The notes below the pieces were generated by a model that was not told the origin of the DNA, searched no databases, and was given only the letters and a program-made list of their open reading frames with translations. The position numbers and the translations under genes were made by a program. From an uncultured Hyphomicrobiales bacterium (lineage in GTDB: Bacteria > Pseudomonadota > Alphaproteobacteria > Rhizobiales > Aestuariivirgaceae), in NCBI GenBank assembly GCA_903951595.1, contig CAJBCQ010000029.1, forward strand, positions 1 through 41,081: a stretch of DNA of 41,081 nucleotides. The letters run 5' to 3'. Within the stretch, counting starts at the first letter, position 1. Every line of letters starts with the position of its first letter. Shown one piece after another: positions 2-14,410 of the stretch.

Positions 2-940
2 TCGATTTCGGTACAGCGCATTGCACACCGCAATCAGAGGCCTATTAATTTCCGATCTGTGCAGGGTGCGATTAACGCAGATGGTGTGGGCAGTGTGTTC
101 GCCGGGCTTTTGGGCACGGTGCCGAACACCGTGTACTCGACCTCTATCGCCGTGGGCGAAATCACTGGCGTCGCCGCGCGCCGCGTGGGCGCATGGGGAG
201 GACTATTTCTGATCGCCCTTGCCTTCTCGCCGAAGATTGCCGCCATGGTGGCCACCATACCTAGCCAGGTCGCAGGGGCTTACATTCTGATCCTGGTTGT
301 CCTGATTTTTGGGCATGGTGTGCGGTTGGTAACAGAAGACGGAATGGGTTTCGACATGGGGCTTGCTGTCTGCCTCAGCTTCTGGATCGGTTTTGGTGCG
401 CAGTCAGGCGGCCTGATGAACACGCTTCTGCCCACATGGCTGCAGACCGTGTTCTCCAACGGGACCACTATAGGGGGGGTGACGGCCATCGCGTTGATGA
501 CGATTATCAACTGGCGAAAGGGCGGCGGTGACCGGGTTACTGTGCCACTCGATCCGCGCTCGCTTGTTTCACTGCGCGACATGGTAAAAAAGTTTTCATC
601 CAAGATTGGCTGGGACGAATTGGCTGAGAACCGGCTCATGTTGGCGGTGGAGGAAGCCTTGCTCGTTCTGTGCGAGGAGCATGATGGCAAGCAAGCTGGC
701 AAGGCCGGCAAGTTGATCGTCAAGTTGTCGGACATCAAGGGTGAGGTGGAGGTCGAGATGGTGACCGGCCCCAACGAGCGCAACGCTGAGGAACTTCTCA
801 GCGCACTGCCAGCGGCAATTCCTGCCGATGACGAGAAAAGCCTATCGCTGCGCTTGCTGCGCAAGACGGTGAAGGAACTCAAGCACCTTCAATACCGTCA
901 GGGCGATTATCTTTTGATGCGGCTCGACAGCACCGGTTGA
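2..940 (+). CDS. NCS2-family (xanthine/uracil-type) permease, 5'-truncated by window edge, with C-terminal degenerate HATPase-like soluble domain (~541-937)
   Basis: Frame is open to base 2 (SISVQRIAHRNQRPINFRSVQGAINADGVGSVFAGLLGTVPNTVYSTSIAVGEITGVAARRVG, NCS2-like core); hydrophobic TM segments to ~bp 515; then soluble domain with ...ENRLMLAVEEALLVLCEEHDG... like an HATPase N-box helix. Confidence 0.82.
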   Translation, partial: SISVQRIAHRNQRPINFRSVQGAINADGVGSVFAGLLGTVPNTVYSTSIAVGEITGVAARRVGAWGGLFLIALAFSPKIAAMVATIPSQVAGAYILILVVLIFGHGVRLVTEDGMGFDMGLAVCLSFWIGFGAQSGGLMNTLLPTWLQTVFSNGTTIGGVTAIALMTIINWRKGGGDRVTVPLDPRSLVSLRDMVKKFSSKIGWDELAENRLMLAVEEALLVLCEEHDGKQAGKAGKLIVKLSDIKGEVEVEMVTGPNERNAEELLSALPAAIPADDEKSLSLRLLRKTVKELKHLQYRQGDYLLMRLDSTG

Positions 941-1878: not shown

Positions 1879-4248
1879 TCACCTGTGTTTCACCACGACG
1901 AGCGTTATATCGTCGTGAACCTTCTGGGTTCCGATATGTGTCTTAAGGTCTGAAATAATGGCCGTCACTGCATCGGATGCAGAACCGGCATGCACTCTGG
2001 CCGCCGACTCAATGAGCTGCTCGATGCTATAGAGCTGACCTGCCTCGCTTTCAGCTTCCGTAATCCCGTCTGTGAACAGCACCAGCATGTCACCAGCGCC
2101 AAACTCAACGCTGATGCTCGACACATAGTCGCCGATGTTTTCTTCCAAGCCAATCGGGAAGCCAAGGTCCATCGTATCAATGCGTGAAACTGAGCCGTCA
2201 TGGCGGATGAGGATGACTTCCTCATGCTGGCCCGAAACCGTGACCTTACCACCTTCGTAATCAATGAAAGCGAGTGAAAGATGCTTGCCGGATTTGGTCC
2301 GTTCGACGTTTTTGTAGATAGTTCGGTTCAGCACTTCGAGGAATCCAGCTGGATCATCGACCCCACGCTCATGGAGTGCGCGTGCAACCGACTGCACCAT
2401 CAACATCAACACGCCGCTTTCAATGCCGTGGCCGGTGACATCGCCGATGCCGATCTTGGCCCCATTGCGTGTGTGCAGAACGTCATAGTAATCGCCACCC
2501 ACCTCATCGGCCGGTTCCACATGGCTGGCGATCTGGAGATCTAGAATGCCTTCAAGCTCCGATGCTGCCGGCAGCACCATCATCTGAATGCGCCGTGCCA
2601 CGTCGAGTTCGGCACCCATGCGAAGGTTCTCATCTTTGAGCTTTTCGTAGAGCCGTTGAATTTCCTGCGTCGCGGAGCCTAGTTCGCGAGTACGGTCCGT
2701 CACGCGCTGTTCAAGCGTTTCGGTGTATTCACGGATCTCGCGCGCCATGGAGTTAAACGCAGCACCCACAAGCGCGACCTCGTCGCGTCCCTTGACTGGA
2801 ATCTGTATATTGTAGTCCGAGCGCGAGAGCCGACCTGCTGCATCAGCAAGCGTGACGAGACCGGCGGTGAAGCGCCTTGATACGGCAACAGACACCGCAA
2901 GAACCAGCACAAGGAATGCCAGCACGGAAGCGAAAATGCCTTTAATGATGCGTTGGGTGGCATTGTCGATCTGGCCCTGCGCGGCATAGAGCGAGGCGTA
3001 GATTTCACGTTCAGGAACCACAAAGCCCAACACCAAGCGCTGGGCCGCGATGCCAGCGTTAGGCTGCCAAAAGTTCATCGGCTCCAGCGGGTGAAGGGCT
3101 ATCATGAGGCCTTCAGGTTTACCGTTCTTCTCCACAGTCACATGCGTGATGCTGGTGGCACCGGGCGCTGGAATTTTGAGGCCTGCGATATCAGAGAAGC
3201 GGCTTTTGGTGAGCGAACGCTCAAGCCCCGTCACGCCTGTACCTGTGGCATTTTCTGGCTTGATACCGAGTAGCTCCTCGCCCATTTCGTTCACGGTCAG
3301 CACATTACCATCCTGCAGAGACAGGAAAGCAAAGCCGGTTTCAGCAATTTTCACGTCTTGCACGAGGCCTGTCAATTGCTCCAGCGTGATATCAACACCC
3401 ACCATGCCAGCGACATCATCGCGACCCTTGTTATAGAGCGGATGGAAGTAGCTGATGATAAGCTTGCCGGTGGTGGCATCAACATAGGGCGCTAAGACTG
3501 TGATGTCGGTTTCAACTGGGCGTGCAGCAGGGTTCTTGGCCCATTGTTGCCAAGCCTCGTAAACGCCTGGAAAGAAGAAGTCCCACCAGTTCTGATCATT
3601 GTGGCCGCCATAAAGCTTGTCAAAAGTCTGCGCCTGTTCCGAATAGGGAATCGTACGCATGAAGGGACGTTCCTTTGGGCCGACATAGTACATCTGCAGC
3701 TTGTTCTGGCCCGAGCGCATGAGGGGCGGCACCACAAGTTCGAATATGTCGGAGTTGCGCACAGCATCTTGAACATCAGGGCGCATACGCCCAGGCCCAT
3801 CGAGCAAATAGCCCCAGACGCTAATGACGGAGGTCTCGCCGGGCTTATTCTGGAGCCAATTTTTGTCGCTGTTAAACTCCATCTGATCTTTGAAGCCTGG
3901 ATAATTTTCCAGTGTCTTGCCGATACTTGCGTCCAATTCTGGTTGGTCAATGAGGCTTTGACCAAACTGCGCGAGCGCATTCACCTGATCAAAGGTGCGC
4001 GCGAACATGAGGTCGGCGCGTTGGGCCGTCATGTCGATGTAGCGGGTCAAATATTGTTCGGTGGCCCTGGATAGACCGCTCTCGATTTCGGCAGAAGCAT
4101 CGCGTGATAAGCGCTGCACATTCCACAGCGCAATACCGCCACCCAGCAAGAGCGACAGCAGCACAGCCCCGCACATAATTGCGATGAACTTAGCGCGGAA
4201 GCTCGACAGAAAACCTGCCTTCATGGAAATCTCAGACGTGTTGCTCAT
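1879..4248 (-). CDS. SpoIIE/RsbU-type PP2C serine phosphatase with N-terminal TM, extracytoplasmic (dCache-like) sensor, HAMP and coiled coil
   Basis: 789 aa; TM-periplasmic-TM-HAMP; RRIQMMVLP, VGGDYYD, GDVTGHG, FTDGITEA, HDDITLVVVK phosphatase motifs. Confidence 0.92.
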   Translation of the reverse strand: MSNTSEISMKAGFLSSFRAKFIAIMCGAVLLSLLLGGGIALWNVQRLSRDASAEIESGLSRATEQYLTRYIDMTAQRADLMFARTFDQVNALAQFGQSLIDQPELDASIGKTLENYPGFKDQMEFNSDKNWLQNKPGETSVISVWGYLLDGPGRMRPDVQDAVRNSDIFELVVPPLMRSGQNKLQMYYVGPKERPFMRTIPYSEQAQTFDKLYGGHNDQNWWDFFFPGVYEAWQQWAKNPAARPVETDITVLAPYVDATTGKLIISYFHPLYNKGRDDVAGMVGVDITLEQLTGLVQDVKIAETGFAFLSLQDGNVLTVNEMGEELLGIKPENATGTGVTGLERSLTKSRFSDIAGLKIPAPGATSITHVTVEKNGKPEGLMIALHPLEPMNFWQPNAGIAAQRLVLGFVVPEREIYASLYAAQGQIDNATQRIIKGIFASVLAFLVLVLAVSVAVSRRFTAGLVTLADAAGRLSRSDYNIQIPVKGRDEVALVGAAFNSMAREIREYTETLEQRVTDRTRELGSATQEIQRLYEKLKDENLRMGAELDVARRIQMMVLPAASELEGILDLQIASHVEPADEVGGDYYDVLHTRNGAKIGIGDVTGHGIESGVLMLMVQSVARALHERGVDDPAGFLEVLNRTIYKNVERTKSGKHLSLAFIDYEGGKVTVSGQHEEVILIRHDGSVSRIDTMDLGFPIGLEENIGDYVSSISVEFGAGDMLVLFTDGITEAESEAGQLYSIEQLIESAARVHAGSASDAVTAIISDLKTHIGTQKVHDDITLVVVKHR

Positions 4249-6845: not shown

Positions 6846-7496
6846 TTACATATGTGCGTGAGCGGCAACTGCCATGGCACGCTCGAATAACTCGATGTAG
6901 TGGCTTACGTTCTGGCCGATAAGCTCCATCTTCGAGAATTTCGCAATCCTCTCGCGCGCGACCTTGAGTTCTGATGCCGGAACAATCTGACGGATGATGC
7001 CGCAGGTTTCGGCAAGCGACATGAGGCACACATCGCGCGGATCAGGAAGACCATCGCGCAGCAATACCTCAAGCAACCTCAGCTTCACTTCGCGAATTTC
7101 TTTGCCGTCAATGGCCGGATAACGGCGCGTTTTGAGGAACCACAGAAGGCGGCCCTCGGTCTCAACTAGAATCTTCTTGTCGCAGAGTCTTTGGAGCGAA
7201 TCGGCACGCACCTGATCTCCGAGCCCAATTAGCTGGCTGATGAGCTTCTCGGCATGGCTGTCGAAATCCGGGGCGCTAAGTTGGGCGAGCACCTGGTCAA
7301 GCGCAGCATTGCCTGTCGGGGTCTTGTCAACAACCCAAATGCGATTGAGGTCACTGTCAAGGCGGCCCTCAAGCCCCAGTTCCATAATCGCTGCGCCAAG
7401 AAAGCCGGCGCGCTGATACTCAAGAGGAATATCGACGAAGCCGCCATCTTCATCTTTCAGCGTCAGGAGCAGGAACTCTTCGCAAACCGTCAACAT
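6846..7496 (-). CDS. GPP34 (GOLPH3/Vps74-like) family protein
   Basis: MLTVCEEFLLLTLKDEDGGFVDIPLEYQRAGFLGAAIMELGLEGRL resembles the GPP34 N-terminus; internal ATG at 7496 preferred over the track's 7535 start. Confidence 0.75.
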   Translation of the reverse strand: MLTVCEEFLLLTLKDEDGGFVDIPLEYQRAGFLGAAIMELGLEGRLDSDLNRIWVVDKTPTGNAALDQVLAQLSAPDFDSHAEKLISQLIGLGDQVRADSLQRLCDKKILVETEGRLLWFLKTRRYPAIDGKEIREVKLRLLEVLLRDGLPDPRDVCLMSLAETCGIIRQIVPASELKVARERIAKFSKMELIGQNVSHYIELFERAMAVAAHAHM

Positions 7497-7671
7497 GCTC
7501 GTCCCCCAAAATTTTGCGCTCAGTCTTGATCTCAAGATACCCTTTATAACAAGTCTTTGTGATTAGCAGTACCAAAATTCGCTAAAATTGACTTTGCAAC
7601 CAAATTCTATGATCTTGACCATCTGGGTGGAGTTGCGTAACCTCAGCTTGTTTTCGGCCAAGGAGTGCGGT

Positions 7672-8094
7672 TTGGAAAGCCGTCTTGATATGTCGCTGGT
7701 GAACGACCTCCAAGAAGTAGGTCGCGTTATCGACAGTCTGGAGGAGTTCGGCGTGCGTAACGGAATCCCGCAACAGCAGGTCCTCCGTTTCGCGGTCGCG
7801 CTGGACGAGCTTATCACAAACATCATCTCGCATGGATTTTCGGGCTCAAGCGGTGGCAACATAAGGCTCATTGTCGAACAGCGGGACGGCGTGCTGAGTG
7901 CTGAACTGGTGGATGATGGTCCGCCCTTCGATCCTTTCGCGGCGGAGGTAGAGGCACCCACTGGCGATATCGAGCACCGCAGGATTGGCGGCTTGGGGAT
8001 TGCTTTGGTCAGGAACGCGATGGACCACATCGGGTATAAACGTGATGGCGGGTTCAACTTTGTGAATTTAGAAATGAAACTGAAGACGGCCTAG
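7672..8094 (+). CDS. RsbW-like anti-sigma factor / serine kinase (HATPase_c_2)
   Basis: VLRFAVALDELITNIISHGF N-box, VDDGPPFDP, GGLGIALVRNAMDHIGYKR; AAGGAG at 7660-7665 precedes TTG at 7672, so a start later than the track's 7588 is likely. Confidence 0.85.
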   Translation: MESRLDMSLVNDLQEVGRVIDSLEEFGVRNGIPQQQVLRFAVALDELITNIISHGFSGSSGGNIRLIVEQRDGVLSAELVDDGPPFDPFAAEVEAPTGDIEHRRIGGLGIALVRNAMDHIGYKRDGGFNFVNLEMKLKTA

Positions 8095-8123
8095 CGGGCC
8101 GCGAGAATTGGGAGAATAAGAAC

Positions 8124-8462
8124 GTGACAGACCTGAACCATGAAGTGATCGGCGGCAGTCTTGTTCTCAAGCCCTCGCGGCGCATTGACAGCAGCACATC
8201 CAAGGCATTCGAGGATGCCGCGAGCGCGCTGGTTGAAAGTGGGCCAAAGAAGGTGGTGATCGATGCCTCCGACCTTGACTACATCTCATCTGCCGGGCTG
8301 CGGGTCATCCTTACCACAGCCAAGAAGGCCAAGGCAGCTGGCGGCGGGCTTACCATTGCCTGCGCGAGTGCCAATGTGAAGGAAGTACTCTCCGTCAGCG
8401 GCTTTGATGCGATCTTCGGCCTGCATGATAGCGTGGATGCAGCGCGCGCGTCGTTCGGTTGA
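8124..8462 (+). CDS. STAS-domain anti-sigma factor antagonist (RsbV/SpoIIAA-like)
   Basis: KKVVIDASDLDYISSAGLRVILTTAKKAKAAGGGL with canonical SSAGLR phosphosite; GTG start. Confidence 0.9.
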   Translation: MTDLNHEVIGGSLVLKPSRRIDSSTSKAFEDAASALVESGPKKVVIDASDLDYISSAGLRVILTTAKKAKAAGGGLTIACASANVKEVLSVSGFDAIFGLHDSVDAARASFG

Positions 8463-9340
8463 GCGTGAGCGAGGAACTGCGAGTCCAACTGGCGACAGTG
8501 GAAGACGAGCTTTCGCGCCTGAAGGCCGAGTTCGATGATCTGACGCTGCTCTACCAAGCCACGATTGAGCATGGCGAGGCGGTTGAAGATCAGCTGGCCG
8601 AAAGTAATCTGGAACTACAGCAAACACAGAAGCGGCTCTCGGAAGAACTGACGGAAGCTACCAACTACATATTCTCCATCCTGCCAGAACCGCGCGTTGC
8701 CGCGCCCAGAACGCAATGGCTTTTGGTACCGTCAACGGAGCTAGGTGGGGATAGCTTCGGCTATCATGACATTGATGCGGACCACATCGCATTCTATCTT
8801 CTTGATGTGTGCGGGCATGGTGTGGGTGCTGCCCTTCTGTCAGTGACGGCCATTAACGTGCTGCGATCTGCAGCCCTTCCGAACACAGATTTCCGTGATC
8901 CCGGCGCAGTTCTGTCTTCGCTCAATGATGCCTTTCCCATGGAAAGGCAGAACAACATGTATTTCACTATCTGGTATGGCGTTTACCAGCGCAGTTCTGG
9001 CGCGCTCAGATATGCGAGTGCGGGTCACCCCGCTTCTATTCTCTGCAAAAAAGAAGCACAGGTTTTGACGCTCTGCACACCCGGCATCGCCATCGGCATG
9101 ATGCCCGAAATGTCCTATCGTGGTGGGCACTGCGTGATCGAGCCTGGAGATCGCCTCCATCTGGTGAGCGATGGTACCTTCGAAGTCGAAACGGCACCTG
9201 GCGAAATGCTTTCCTTCAACGATTTTGTAGAGCGGTTAAGCCGTGCGGATAGCCCCGGTGAAGTGCTGGAATGGGTGCGCAGCCTCAATGGGTCTGGCCC
9301 CTTGCCAGATGATTTTTCCCTCCTCACCATCGACTTTTAA
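8459..9340 (+). CDS. SpoIIE/RsbU-type PP2C serine phosphatase with N-terminal coiled coil
   Basis: ELGGDSFGYHDID, LLDVCGHGVGAALLSV, ASAGHPASIL, LVSDGTFEVE, PDDFSLLTIDF; overlaps upstream STAS stop; TTG (8459) or GTG (8465) start. Confidence 0.9.
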   Translation: MSVSEELRVQLATVEDELSRLKAEFDDLTLLYQATIEHGEAVEDQLAESNLELQQTQKRLSEELTEATNYIFSILPEPRVAAPRTQWLLVPSTELGGDSFGYHDIDADHIAFYLLDVCGHGVGAALLSVTAINVLRSAALPNTDFRDPGAVLSSLNDAFPMERQNNMYFTIWYGVYQRSSGALRYASAGHPASILCKKEAQVLTLCTPGIAIGMMPEMSYRGGHCVIEPGDRLHLVSDGTFEVETAPGEMLSFNDFVERLSRADSPGEVLEWVRSLNGSGPLPDDFSLLTIDF

Positions 9341-9345
9341 CGCAG

Positions 9346-10965
9346 CTAGCTCGGCGATGCTTCGGAAAGGCGTGAACCCTGATTGGTAGCCAACTCACGC
9401 ACCAACCAAACAATGCGCTCGAACAGACCTGTAGCGACATAAAGAGCCTCACGATTTGCATTCGACACCGTCTCATGCTCAATGATTTGGCCACGCAAGC
9501 GCGTCATCACACCACCTCGGTCGCGGGTTAATTTTTCCAGCGTATCCGCATCACCTTCACCAGTGGCATACTCAGCCAGCAGACCGAGCAAGAAATGAAG
9601 CGTCTCGGTCATGGCTTCGCGTTTAGCCGTTTCATGAGGCACCGGATCTTGAAGGTTTTCCAACTCTTCCACGTAATTATGCAGAACCGTAATAAGGGAT
9701 TGAAGCTCGCCATTTTGACGCTGTAGTAGCAGCAAGCCGCCAACATCTGTGTTGCGAGGATGGCTTGCTACTGCGAGGCTTATGAAGTCCTCAATCTGCT
9801 GGGCAAGTTCCAGTGCCAAGCGACGGCGCTGTTCATTATCCAGCGTGAGCATGCCCCCATCCTCCGCCTCAGGTCGAAGTGGCATCAGGGATATGGGCAT
9901 GAGCGCAACAAGGCGTGAGTATTCGCGTTGGGCAAGCATGAGTGCAGTTTCTGGATCCTCAGCCGCCTCGTCAATCAGGAACTCCGCTTCATATTGCTGT
10001 CTCTCGCTATCAAGCGGCGCCATTATTTGCAGAAGGAACAGCAAAGGCTGTTGTAGGAAAGCTGTGAGAACCGCGCCCACCACGTTCAGGGCCAAGTAGG
10101 TAAGCGCAATGACCATCTGTAACGACACGCCTAGCGAGGCCGGCTCCGGCATGCTTTCAAAAGCCTGCAGCAAAATTATGGGTAGGAGGACGGCGAGCGA
10201 GCCGAGCAGCTTCACCGCGGCCTGCCACAGCGAAATTTGACGTGGCAAGCCGGCAAGGTGTGACGATACCAGCACCACGCTAAGACCTGAGCCAAGGTTG
10301 GCCCCACAGACGATCACAAGAGCGGAATGGAGTGGCAGCAGGCCTGCTGCACCTAAGGCAACGGTGATGATCGAAACGGTGGAGGAGGACTGCATCACCA
10401 GGGTAATGACCAGACCGATCAGAAACCCATATATCCACGAGGTAGATGCGAAGATAAAGAACTCTTGCGCCCAGCCATTCTGCTGAAGGCCTTGGCCGGT
10501 TTCTTTAATCATGGCCAGACCCAACAGTGTCAGGCCAATGGCGACTAACAATTCAGCACTCCGTCGGCCTGCTGCATGGCGGTGCAGAGCTGCGAGGTAG
10601 AAGATCGCAACCAAGGCTAGGGCACCCAGTGCGGCTAGGCGTAAATCGATAGAGGCTAGAAAAATCAAAACCGCAGTTCCCACTCCCGACCAAGCCGTTA
10701 TTGATAGCGCCGCCGGAAAGGTGATGGCCCGTGAATTCAGAAGCCCCATGCACACAAACGTCGCCGCACTTGTGCTCTGGGTAAGGGCACCGAGCAGAAT
10801 GCCCATGATGGGACCAGACAAGGGAAGTTTTGCAAGTGCGCGAAACACGGTTCGAACATGGCGAGCCGAGAGCGCACGGACAGCCTCAGCGAGCATGTGA
10901 AGCCCCGCGAGGAAGAACCCAAGGCCGGCAAAAGCCGCAACGGTGTCGGACATCATCACCGTCAA
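9346..10965 (-). CDS. Na/Pi cotransporter family protein (NptA-type) with C-terminal PhoU-like domain
   Basis: 539 aa; GLFLAGLHMLAEAVRALSA, LLGALTQSTSAATFVCMG, VMQSSSTVSIITVALGAAG; C-terminal helical cytoplasmic domain. Confidence 0.88.
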   Translation of the reverse strand: MTVMMSDTVAAFAGLGFFLAGLHMLAEAVRALSARHVRTVFRALAKLPLSGPIMGILLGALTQSTSAATFVCMGLLNSRAITFPAALSITAWSGVGTAVLIFLASIDLRLAALGALALVAIFYLAALHRHAAGRRSAELLVAIGLTLLGLAMIKETGQGLQQNGWAQEFFIFASTSWIYGFLIGLVITLVMQSSSTVSIITVALGAAGLLPLHSALVIVCGANLGSGLSVVLVSSHLAGLPRQISLWQAAVKLLGSLAVLLPIILLQAFESMPEPASLGVSLQMVIALTYLALNVVGAVLTAFLQQPLLFLLQIMAPLDSERQQYEAEFLIDEAAEDPETALMLAQREYSRLVALMPISLMPLRPEAEDGGMLTLDNEQRRRLALELAQQIEDFISLAVASHPRNTDVGGLLLLQRQNGELQSLITVLHNYVEELENLQDPVPHETAKREAMTETLHFLLGLLAEYATGEGDADTLEKLTRDRGGVMTRLRGQIIEHETVSNANREALYVATGLFERIVWLVRELATNQGSRLSEASPS

Positions 10966-11669
10966 CCCCGTGTAGCCCGCAGCGCGCTGATGAGGACATA
11001 GACCGTGATGACAAGGCTAAGGCCGATGACTCCCAGAATGAACAAGCGGAGACTGGCATAACGATCTTGCATCTGGGTGAGCAAAATGTTCCTGCGGGTG
11101 TCGGAAATTGTTGCAATGGCCCCGGACAGCTTGCCGATGCCGGCCTCCAAATCGCGGTCAGCCCCGCGAACGCTCTTGTCGATGAGACTGGCCATTTCGG
11201 GTGTGAGAGTTATAGACATGCCACGCTCCTCAGCGAGCGCAGCCTCATATCGTGATGTCATGATTTGCAGCTTGCTGCTCAGCGCGGCGGCCTGCTCCGC
11301 CTCGTCCTTTAGCCCGAGCTTGGTTGCACCAGCGGCAACCTTGCCAAGCTCTTCCTGTGACTTCTGGGCATGAACACGAAATGAATTGAGGTGCTTGTCC
11401 AACAGCGCGCTTTCATCGCCCCGAAGCAGAACATTCTTCCATTCTTGGATTTGCACCTTGAAATTAACCTGTGAATATAGCCCCACACGCGACAGGTCCT
11501 GCAATTCAGCCGTTTCGCTTGTTCCAGCTGTCCAAGCACGGTTGATGGACCAGATTGAAAATAGCGAGAAGAGCCCAATAACCACTACCAGCGCGATCAT
11601 GGTGAAGGCCGAGGTTGTGATGGCGCGGCGCAGCGCGATTTTGCCGTTCAGGTTTAGGCTGTCAGCCAT
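10962..11669 (-). CDS. Two-TM protein with periplasmic four-helix-bundle-like (MCP sensor-like) domain, no output domain
   Basis: TM near N-terminus (FTMIALVVVIGLFSLFSIWSI), helical periplasmic region with 4HB-like character, C-terminal TM, then only ~7 residues; 4-bp overlap with NptA gene; ATG at 11669 preferred. Confidence 0.6.
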   Translation of the reverse strand: MADSLNLNGKIALRRAITTSAFTMIALVVVIGLFSLFSIWSINRAWTAGTSETAELQDLSRVGLYSQVNFKVQIQEWKNVLLRGDESALLDKHLNSFRVHAQKSQEELGKVAAGATKLGLKDEAEQAAALSSKLQIMTSRYEAALAEERGMSITLTPEMASLIDKSVRGADRDLEAGIGKLSGAIATISDTRRNILLTQMQDRYASLRLFILGVIGLSLVITVYVLISALRATRG

Positions 11670-11894
11670 TTCCGCCAATCCTTTGCAAGCTAACAACAAT
11701 CTGTGAGCTAAATGACAATTGGGTGACGTTACAATGTCAGTGATACTCACGCAATATTTAACCATATACCCCTATAGATTATTGCTTGCGTCGTCTTTCG
11801 TCGAGAACGATTTGCTGTGCTGCGATGTTGAGAAGTTGGGGTGGCCTAATCCACTGTCTCTTGACGGCGATGGCTTGGCCAAGCTTACAACCAC

Positions 11895-13598
11895 CTAAGA
11901 TTCAAAGCGCAGCAGAATCCCCTGCTGTCCGTCACGCATGAATGGTTGGGCTTGGTGGGCTAAGTGACGAACCAGCCAGCCCGCCATGCGCGAGACGCCA
12001 TCCGGATCATTCATTAGTTCCTCTGGTGAGGGTGCCCGATCAGGGAACACCATTGGCTGGCCGGAATAGAGAATCCGCAAGTCAAAATTCAGCTCATCAT
12101 GGCGAGCTTCGAGACGTATTGGACCTTCACACAATTCAGAAACAGCCTCGACCAACTGGTTCACTGCACCATTGGCCTGCAACACTGTGGCCCGCTTCAA
12201 TCCCCACGTTTCACCCCAAATATCGAGGGCTTCTAGTATCTTGTCGTGGCGGGCCAGTCCGTCGGGCACTTCCATCGCCTCGGTCTGGGCGATGCCGATC
12301 CGCATCAGCGCGTTGAGCGCGATGGCCAGTAGAGCTGAGGTAATGAGCGGTGAGTGCAGAATGATGTTCATGATGCCCGTGGCGCTCGACACCAGTACTG
12401 GTGTCGCTTGAACGGCGATGCCCGCTGCTACCGGCACGCCAATGACGATCATGCGGCGAGGCGACATCATGCGCGACAGCGCCAACTCAGCGCCCGCCAC
12501 GATGAAATAGCTCGCGGCATAGCCAAGGATACCGCCAACCACGGGTTCCGGCATGGCAGTCACGATGGTGGTGAGCTTAGGAAAGAAGCTGGCGGCGATG
12601 AGTACAATGCCCGCAGCCGTGCCAACAATGCGCGAAGTAACACCCGTGGCAAAGGCAAGCCCGATATTGGTGGAGGAAAGCCCGATGAAGCCTCCACCAA
12701 GAAAAGAAGAAAGCACGCTGGTTACGCCCAAGCTGGAGACGCCCTGCGACAGTTGCTTCATGTTGGGTCTGCTCCAGTCGGCATCGTCCAGCCTGTCCAT
12801 GCTGATAAGCACGCCCATATCATCGACCGCCGAGACCATCGAAAGAACAACAAAGGCGATGATGAGCGAGATGCCGATACTGAAATCTGGCAGCACGAAT
12901 TGTGGTGGTGCCATGAACGGTGCTGTGGCGATGGCTTCACCAAACCCGTCCAACTCACCCAAGAAGAACGCCATCAGATAACCGACCGCGCAACCCATCA
13001 GTAGGGCGAAGAAGCGTTTCGTACCTTTAAGCCACACCGCAGCCACGATGATGGTGCCCATTGTGGCTAGGCTGATAGCAAGCGCACGGCTATCGAGTGC
13101 ATAGAAAGTGGCCTCATCTTCGATCCCGAGGATACGGTTGAAGGTAAGCGGTAGGATGGAAACGCCCAGCATGAGAACAACAACACCGCACACTTCAGCC
13201 GGGAATAAGCCGCGCAGTCTTTCCAGCACGTGTCCCATGGCGATCTGCACCAACCCACCCATGAGAACCAGCGCAGCCACGCCGCCTGGGCCTGCCGCAG
13301 CGCCAGCCTGAATGCCGAACAACACGAACACGGGCGTTCCGAGAGGTATGGCGAGAAGCCCACTCGCATGGCGGGCAAACTTCGCCTGAATGACAGCACC
13401 AACCCCGCAACTGAGTAAGGTTCCCACCAGCAGCGACTGCTGTTGCACAGCAGTGAAGCCTGCGCCTTTGGCAATCATTGCAGCATAGATGAGGAAAAGG
13501 GCGGGCAGCGCGGCATGCTGGAAGGCAAGAAGCGCAATGGAGGCCAACGGTGGGCGCTCGTCCCTTGAAAACTGGATACTGCGCGGGCGCTTTTTCAT
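11895..13598 (-). CDS. NCS2-family permease with C-terminal degenerate HATPase-like soluble domain (~11895-12290)
   Basis: NCS2-like TM core (LASIALLAFQHAALPALFLIYAAMIAKGAGF..., FIGLSSTNIGLAFATGVTSRIVG); C-terminal domain with QANGAVNQLVEAVSELCEGPIRLEARHDELNFDLRILYSG; ATG at 13598 preferred over 13646. Confidence 0.85.
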   Translation of the reverse strand: MKKRPRSIQFSRDERPPLASIALLAFQHAALPALFLIYAAMIAKGAGFTAVQQQSLLVGTLLSCGVGAVIQAKFARHASGLLAIPLGTPVFVLFGIQAGAAAGPGGVAALVLMGGLVQIAMGHVLERLRGLFPAEVCGVVVLMLGVSILPLTFNRILGIEDEATFYALDSRALAISLATMGTIIVAAVWLKGTKRFFALLMGCAVGYLMAFFLGELDGFGEAIATAPFMAPPQFVLPDFSIGISLIIAFVVLSMVSAVDDMGVLISMDRLDDADWSRPNMKQLSQGVSSLGVTSVLSSFLGGGFIGLSSTNIGLAFATGVTSRIVGTAAGIVLIAASFFPKLTTIVTAMPEPVVGGILGYAASYFIVAGAELALSRMMSPRRMIVIGVPVAAGIAVQATPVLVSSATGIMNIILHSPLITSALLAIALNALMRIGIAQTEAMEVPDGLARHDKILEALDIWGETWGLKRATVLQANGAVNQLVEAVSELCEGPIRLEARHDELNFDLRILYSGQPMVFPDRAPSPEELMNDPDGVSRMAGWLVRHLAHQAQPFMRDGQQGILLRFES

Positions 13599-13882
13599 CC
13601 GCTTCGTCCTTCGCTCCTGCGCCAGATCCACCGAGTGGATGCCCAAATTTTATCGCTCATCTGGCGGGTGGTTTCTAGCGCAATGTAACTCATGCGCTGA
13701 GGACCCACTCATTATTTTAGGTGAAGAGAGTAACCCCGGGAGAGCGCATGCTGAATTTATCACTATCCTCAATCTCAAGTTGCAATATTTAGAACCTTTT
13801 ATCCGATTATTAAACCCCACATGTAAGATTGGTTTGTAGAATTTAATATCAGGCAATTCCGCACCTCTGCAGACAAACGAAA

Positions 13883-13966: not shown

Positions 13967-14410
13967 TCAATCATCATCAGAACCGTTATCCGAGCTATCA
14001 TTATCCGGTCCAGAATCGTCGGGGCCGGAATCATCCGGGCCATCATTGGAGTCATCCGAGCTGTCATCGGAACTGTCATCCGAGCTGTCGTCAGAACTGT
14101 CGTCCGAGCTGTCATCGGAACTGTCATCGGAACTGTCATCGGAACTGTCCTCGGGCGAGTCATCGACGCCGTCTACATCATCCCCAGCTTCGTCTTCTTC
14201 ACCAGAAATAGCTTCTTGTACGTCTTCTGGATCGGCTGTCGCTTTCACGGCATCACTCAGGGTAGCGAAAACCTCTTGGGTTACGCAGCTTTCCACGCCA
14301 TTGTCAGTCACCTCGATCAAACCACCTCCACAGCTGGCATTGGCGTTTGAGGTAAATACGCCCATGAATGCCGCCAAGGCAAAGGCGCTGATGCTCATTC
14401 TATAGTTCAT
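13967..14410 (-). CDS. Exported, highly acidic low-complexity protein (DDSS)n
   Basis: Signal peptide-like N-terminus MNYRMSISAFALAAFMGVFTSNANA, short Cys-containing segment, then long DSSDDSSDD... tail. Confidence 0.7.
   Translation of the reverse strand: MNYRMSISAFALAAFMGVFTSNANASCGGGLIEVTDNGVESCVTQEVFATLSDAVKATADPEDVQEAISGEEDEAGDDVDGVDDSPEDSSDDSSDDSSDDSSDDSSDDSSDDSSDDSSDDSNDGPDDSGPDDSGPDNDSSDNGSDDD
14051..14146. repeat. 12-bp tandem repeat, 8 units (gtcatcggaact / gtcatccgagct variants), encoding DDSS on minus strand
   Basis: Units start at 14051, 14063, 14075, 14087, 14099, 14111, 14123, 14135; a degenerate ninth follows. Confidence 0.9.

Follow-up and report, generated by a model that had tools for sequence, protein, structure and literature searches.

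NCS2-like transporters with a C-terminal pseudo-RsbW domain and a proposed link to partner-switching signaling

The window (the whole stretch of 41,081 nucleotides analyzed here) opens with the 3′ part of an NCS2-like transporter gene of type T1 (positions 2–940, + strand), whose original assignment as an NCS2 permease is borne out by a match to Pfam Xan_ur_permease (PF00860, 8.8e-23). The contig edge falls inside the gene, the 5′ part of which lies on contig C115 (L006:2406-3347), which shares an identical overlap of 138 bp with the window (G000:C29); the joined T1 frame is 580 aa long. The original prediction had its coordinates and quoted residues right, and is corrected here in that the gene is truncated at the contig edge and that the domain proper, a C-terminal pseudo-RsbW domain of 136 aa (a dead HATPase_c_2 fold), spans 530–937 (+). 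A model of the full-length relative L013, which belongs to the T1/T2 clade described below, has UapA and UraA as its best Foldseek matches (5i6c, 1.4e-15), with SLC26 lower. Full-length T2 scores below the NCBIfam TIGR00801 cut-off (141.6 vs 291.8 bits), and T1 is truncated in the window. On contig C115 an MTA/SAH nucleosidase gene (TIGR01705; L006:1668-2273) is situated between the divergent T3 and T1 NCS2 genes. It was considered as a hint to the substrate of T1 and set aside, as it was not seen near the other fused members.

The HATPase_c_2 profile (PF13581) matches the T1 tail over residues 2–122 of the 132-aa tail (1.1e-5), with a score of 25.9 bits that is short of the curated Pfam gathering cut-off of 27.4 bits, and it matches the tails of 16 of 27 relatives at E-values up to 1. 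One scan of GTDB genomes provided 26 usable end-to-end relatives, giving a domain alignment of 27 sequences with the window's own. These relatives have 23–99% domain identity, carry the domain at the same position of the protein, and derive from Alpha-, Beta-, and Gammaproteobacteria as well as from MAGs labeled Planctomycetota and Binatota. The AlphaFold (AF2) model built from this alignment (pLDDT 81.1, pTM 0.78) has the topology β-α-α-β-β-(short α)-α-β-β. Foldseek comparison with the PDB returns RsbW of B. subtilis, the UsfX/SigF-type anti-sigma factor, and Bacillus SpoIIAB as the top 18 matches (E 1e-6 to 1.6e-4, TM-scores up to 0.84); histidine kinases rank below these, and no SiaB-type structure is among the top matches. 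A PDB sequence search with the domain profile gave nothing useful, and only the fold comparison was informative. Its result agrees with an alignment of profiles between the domain and the intact RsbW proteins encoded in these loci (5e-5). As the top matches are all RsbW, UsfX, or SpoIIAB, the tail belongs to the RsbW branch of the fold, the partners of which are STAS proteins. The proposal of a non-catalytic HATPase-type fold is thus upheld by the model and its matches, no unrelated fold having appeared, and the predicted RsbW-type fold and the loss of its ATP site are well supported, to a degree that leaves us in little doubt.

The T1 tail includes ENRLMLAVEEALLVLCEEHDG, in which Glu42 (653–655) aligns with the N-box Glu of RsbW and Val46 (665–667) replaces the Asn, and KSLSLRLLR stands where RsbW-type proteins have GGLGIALVR; the N-box-like helix with Glu and without Asn, and the replaced G-box, are both present as first described. 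Among 34 domains the N-box Asn is found in none, Asp at 78–80 likewise in none (0/34), and the GGLG lid is replaced. With the N-box Asn, the G1 Asp, and the lid GxG gone while the N-box Glu is kept, the ATP- and Mg-binding signature of RsbW is therefore absent. Glu42 (aligned to RsbW Glu49), Glu76 in strand β3 (755–757), Asn85 (782–784), and His119 of an HxQY...D motif (884–886) are invariant (34/34), and Asp126 (905–907) and Arg35 are each present in 33 of the 34 (all coordinates on the + strand). Values of dN/dS for the domain are 0.06–0.56 in 12 pairs, usually somewhat above those of the TM part and well below 1. The T1 tail is under purifying selection, dead yet not decaying, and the earlier term "degenerate" is apt for the lost ATP motifs but not for the domain as a whole, which is retooled. 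The presence of the same tail in 27 sequences at the same place, together with its invariant residues, indicates that it is neither a chance occurrence nor one decayed copy.

A second NCS2-like transporter, of type T2 (11895–13646, − strand; 583 aa; PF00860, 7e-35), has its own pseudo-RsbW domain (11898–12290, −). By hhalign the tails of T1 and T2 match over their whole length (3e-6) and the T2 tail aligns with RsbW at 6.5e-6; HATPase_c_2 matches 3 of 11 T2 relatives, and weakly. The T2 tail lacks the invariant residue set of T1, although the fold and the neighboring genes are common to both. The genome contains a third fused NCS2 on contigs C115/C16, with the T2 version of the tail; every NCS2 found in the source genome is of the fused kind (three copies). 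NCS2 genes are present in 44 of 146 alphaproteobacterial genomes, and besides the source genome the fusion is confirmed in nine of the 44. Nearly all matches of the T2 profile in 395 genomes fall inside frames of ~565–640 aa, i.e. are fused, the few exceptions being fragments at contig ends, a single GC-rich frame that is too long, and one 182-aa frame with a weak match. A plasmid search with the T1 domain gave zero matches. In the three plasmid records looked up, the fused NCS2 is annotated merely as 'solute carrier family 23 protein', and we found no description of an NCS2 protein fused to an RsbW or HATPase fold in the literature searched, the coverage of which leaves out most subscription journals.

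In a tree of the TM parts, T1 (33 proteins) and T2 (17 proteins, including that of the window) form one clade with SH-aLRT support of 99, showing by computation a single origin of the NCS2-tail fusion. The only domain-less member, L075:9275-10615, is nested inside the fused clade and appears to have lost its domain; it is divergent from an adjacent T2 paralogue that retains the tail. L027 and L036 were rejected as examples of unfused NCS2 proteins, as their tails are missing only through contig ends.

The genes that separate T1 from T2 include two sets of signaling genes. Convergent with T1 is a gene for an slr1659-type STAS protein (967–1305, −; NF047705, 5.2e-40), followed by that for an slr1658-type HATPase-fold regulator with which it is paired (1326–1874, −; NF047703, 1.5e-48) and that for a SiaA-like membrane phosphatase with dCache, HAMP, and SpoIIE domains (1879–4248, −; PF07228, 4.2e-37; SiaA model, 6.8e-39, below its cut-off). 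The segment 967–5953 (−) also holds a methyltransferase with an slr1659-matching N-terminus and a second slr1658-like protein, and amounts to a SiaABC-like circuit in which a STAS-like domain is fused to a methyltransferase. The second set comprises a free RsbW-like kinase in which the N-box, DDG, and GGLG motifs are all intact (7588–8094, +; HATPase_c_2, 1.4e-21), an RsbV-type STAS protein with a phosphorylatable Ser in YISSAGL (8124–8462, +; STAS, 2.5e-19; TIGR00377 above cut-off), and a SpoIIE/PP2C-type phosphatase (8459–9340, +); the last has partial matches to RssB and SpoIIE models that are below the cut-offs, and its relatives from other loci match Pfam SpoIIE at 1e-48. A GPP34 (Golgi phosphoprotein 3-like) gene (6846–7535, −) adjoins RsbW/STAS, and in L017 a member of this family flanks STAS, as another flanks T2 in L079. 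Further rightwards are genes for a Na/Pi-cotransporter-like protein (9346–10965, −; NF037997 above cut-off), which has a long soluble tail, and a two-TM protein (10962–11765, −) that has no Pfam or NCBIfam match and on inspection resembles an MCP four-helix-bundle sensor without an output domain. L013 and L019 likewise have this four-helix and Na/Pi gene pair beside fused NCS2 genes; in L018, L076, and perhaps L123 the Na/Pi gene accompanies fused NCS2 by itself. The RsbW, STAS, SpoIIE, Na/Pi, and four-helix genes (7588–11765) together adjoin T2, which is on the opposite strand to the first three; T1 is ~6.6 kb from the RsbW/STAS/SpoIIE genes and outside their operon. To the right of T2, near a two-component system, is a gene (13967–14410, −) whose small product appears to be secreted and contains a long (DDSS)n repeat.

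The neighbors of NCS2 genes in other loci were compared by profile searches of all open frames within ~5 kb on each side, where the contig allows. RsbW, STAS, SpoIIE, or slr1658/slr1659 genes are near 14 of 54 fused loci and none of 45 unfused loci; with near-duplicates removed and 16 fused loci added, the counts are 11/60 and 0/44 (two-sided Fisher p = 0.002, an optimistic value since relatedness between loci is ignored). The other 49 of the 60 fused loci have no RsbW/STAS/SpoIIE neighbor within ~5 kb. Where such genes are present their arrangements differ. In L065 the order is SpoIIE-RsbW-STAS-NCS2, head to tail on one strand, and in L076 it is NCS2-STAS-RsbW. STAS is divergent from NCS2 in L077, L078, L079, and L126 and immediately upstream of it in L026 and L036, while RsbW is immediately upstream in L013–L015. 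L019 has genes for a four-helix-bundle protein, a Na/Pi transporter, and NCS2, and then SpoIIE-RsbW-STAS-STAS on the opposite strand. On a Thiodictyon plasmid deposited with annotation, a stretch of no more than 11 kb contains two T2 NCS2 genes and, after them, genes for STAS, SpoIIE, and an ATP-binding protein. Such variation is what one would expect if the link were functional and not inherited. The full module (phospho-Ser STAS, intact kinase, and PP2C phosphatase together) is present in the window (7588–9340) and in L065, L019, L076, L077, L078, and L123. In the free RsbW proteins that were aligned, the GGLG motif is present alongside both N-box residues, Glu and Asn, and the Ser is retained in the STAS neighbors inspected.

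The transporter part of the fused proteins also departs from the canonical pattern. UapA binds xanthine through Gln408 in TM10 and Glu356 in TM8, and with a Q408P substitution transport can no longer be detected when substrate is low (PMC4837479). Where UapA has Gln408 and UraA has Glu290, the alignment places a Thr in T1 (140–142, +), and none of 50 fused proteins (T1 0/33, T2 0/17) aligns a Gln or Glu there, the replacements being Met, Ser, Thr, Asn, Ala, Gly, or Asp. A TM10 Gln or Glu is present in 45 of the 46 proteins classed as unfused (fragments excluded), the exception being the domain-less clade member L075:9275-10615. The TM8 acid is kept in T1 (Glu or Asp in 32 of 33), and in T2 it is Arg in 7 of 17 proteins (L065, L063, L064, L067, L057, L075, and L080), which might suit an anionic ligand. 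With the TM10 ligand lost and, in part of T2, the TM8 acid replaced, either the fused clade has specificity for other substrates or its members are no longer standard transporters.

Together these features suggest that the fused membrane protein is probably wired into a partner-switching circuit. We lean, if only slightly, towards the tail being a pseudo-kinase, tethered to the membrane, to which a phosphorylatable STAS protein docks, so that NCS2 is coupled to partner switching; the docking itself, of a free STAS protein on the NCS2 tail, is an inference that we judge about evenly balanced. It is suggested firstly by the STAS/RsbW/SpoIIE genes that adjoin fused but not unfused NCS2 genes, and secondly by the kept Glu42, as in the RsbV-RsbW crystal structure the corresponding RsbW Glu49 hydrogen-bonds RsbV Ser56, the serine that is phosphorylated (PMC7340262). 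Other RsbV contacts of RsbW are not kept, since Asp42 is replaced by Arg35 and Arg23 is Arg in only 15 of 34 domains, so that the mapping is mixed and does not prove docking; a pseudo-kinase that keeps Glu42 without binding ATP fits a docking role and no more. The loss of these contacts counts against docking, as do the distance of T1 from the module, the orientation of T2, and the 49 of 60 fused loci without module genes within ~5 kb.

If docking occurs, the RsbV-like STAS protein at 8124–8462, adjoining RsbW and SpoIIE, is a likelier partner than the slr1659-type STAS at 967–1305, which is paired with slr1658. The intact, separate RsbW kinase would phosphorylate this STAS protein on Ser and the SpoIIE phosphatase would take the phosphate off, and the unphosphorylated but not the phosphorylated form would bind the pseudo-RsbW tail of NCS2. 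Occupancy of the tail by STAS might then gate the transporter or, as a second option, the NCS2 part could be a ligand sensor, with ligand binding setting the amount of STAS held at the membrane. We infer both the dependence on STAS phosphorylation and the direction of signaling, with a slight preference for NCS2 as the regulated output. An extended and distinctly tentative version, which we doubt more than we credit, is that the fused clade consists of membrane receptors that are no longer canonical nucleobase transporters; the ligand-bound transporter fold would open or close the tethered pseudo-anti-sigma domain, holding or releasing STAS and feeding an extracellular or metabolite signal into RsbW/SpoIIE switching.

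The strongest of the alternatives, although we think it rather unlikely, is that the tail has been retooled as a ligand-binding regulatory domain with no STAS involved, in which Glu42, Glu76, Asn85, His119, and Asp126 would surround what was once the ATP pocket, and NCS2 would be gated by the metabolite or metal bound there. The new polar set varies little or not at all among the 34 domains, divergent as these are, Glu42 aligns with the nucleotide-site Glu of RsbW-type kinases, and most fused loci have no STAS gene nearby; the RsbW/STAS/SpoIIE genes beside fused but not unfused NCS2 would be left unexplained, however, and T2 does not have the same invariant set even though it shares the fold and the neighbors. 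A purely structural module, joining two transporter protomers through RsbW-type β1/α1 dimerization with no regulatory partner, seems less likely still. RsbW and SpoIIAB do dimerize via α1 and β1 (PMC7340262), UapA functions as a dimer (PMC4837479), and the predicted tail directly abuts the last TM helix, but the enrichment of partner-switching neighbors argues against this, and invariant Glu, Asn, His, and Asp residues are not obviously needed for dimerization alone. It is improbable that the slr1659/slr1658 pair (967–1874) and the SiaA-like phosphatase, acting as a SiaABC-like circuit, are the real partner and the RsbW/STAS/SpoIIE module incidental: the pair is the immediate, convergent neighbor of T1 here, as it is in L009, which is near-identical to the window, but it was not seen beside any other fused NCS2 among the loci examined, and the fold matches are to RsbW-type kinases, with no SiaB-type structure among the top ones. 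That the tail still binds ATP and phosphorylates STAS via a non-canonical site is very improbable, as the catalytic Glu is invariant but the Mg-binding Asn and the adenine Asp are gone in all 34 domains and the lid glycines are replaced.

The fused NCS2 protein has partial parallels in several known systems. The tail resembles the RsbW/SpoIIAB/UsfX anti-sigma serine kinases in predicted fold and N-box Glu, and in having STAS and SpoIIE genes nearby in part of the fused family; it differs from them in lacking the ATP-site residues and in being attached to a membrane transporter, in that the pseudo-RsbW did not turn up here as a stand-alone, RsbW-sized protein, and in that no sigma factor is seen among the partner genes of fused loci. 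The original prediction drew an architectural parallel with SLC26/SulP transporters, which is a fair one, as these have a related 7+7 TM fold and a cytoplasmic partner-switching domain at the same C-terminal position. The fused NCS2 tail, however, has no STAS domain and instead the RsbW fold, the partner of STAS, and the TM part is closer to UapA/UraA, with SLC26 matched later. Compared with the NAT/NCS2 nucleobase transporters UapA and UraA themselves, the fused proteins share the TM fold and (in T1) the TM8 acidic residue, and differ in the TM10 residue missing from all fused members and the additional C-terminal domain. CbrA and other SLC5-STAC-histidine kinase transceptors likewise combine a transporter fold and a GHKL-type signaling domain in one polypeptide, although CbrA has an active histidine kinase and a response regulator (PMC7096432, PMC13022988) while the fused protein is NCS2 rather than SLC5 and has a dead RsbW-type ATPase fold. 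A precedent for a free STAS protein on a transporter component is MlaB, which is bound to the transporter ATPase MlaF (PMC7367683), although MlaB binds an ABC ATPase domain and not an RsbW-like fold.

Among the alphaproteobacterial genomes sampled, about one-fifth of those that have an NCS2 gene contain the fusion. In it, a sister transporter family of SLC26 carries the STAS-binding fold. The role of the STAS domain on SLC26 transporters is still debated, and partner switching is known mainly for sigma factors. If the receptor version were true, the fused proteins would be a class of transceptor built on a dead switch kinase and not on a histidine kinase. If docking is true, partner switching would act on, or be fed by, a membrane transporter directly, and the question of why STAS sits on transporters would become testable in small soluble domains.
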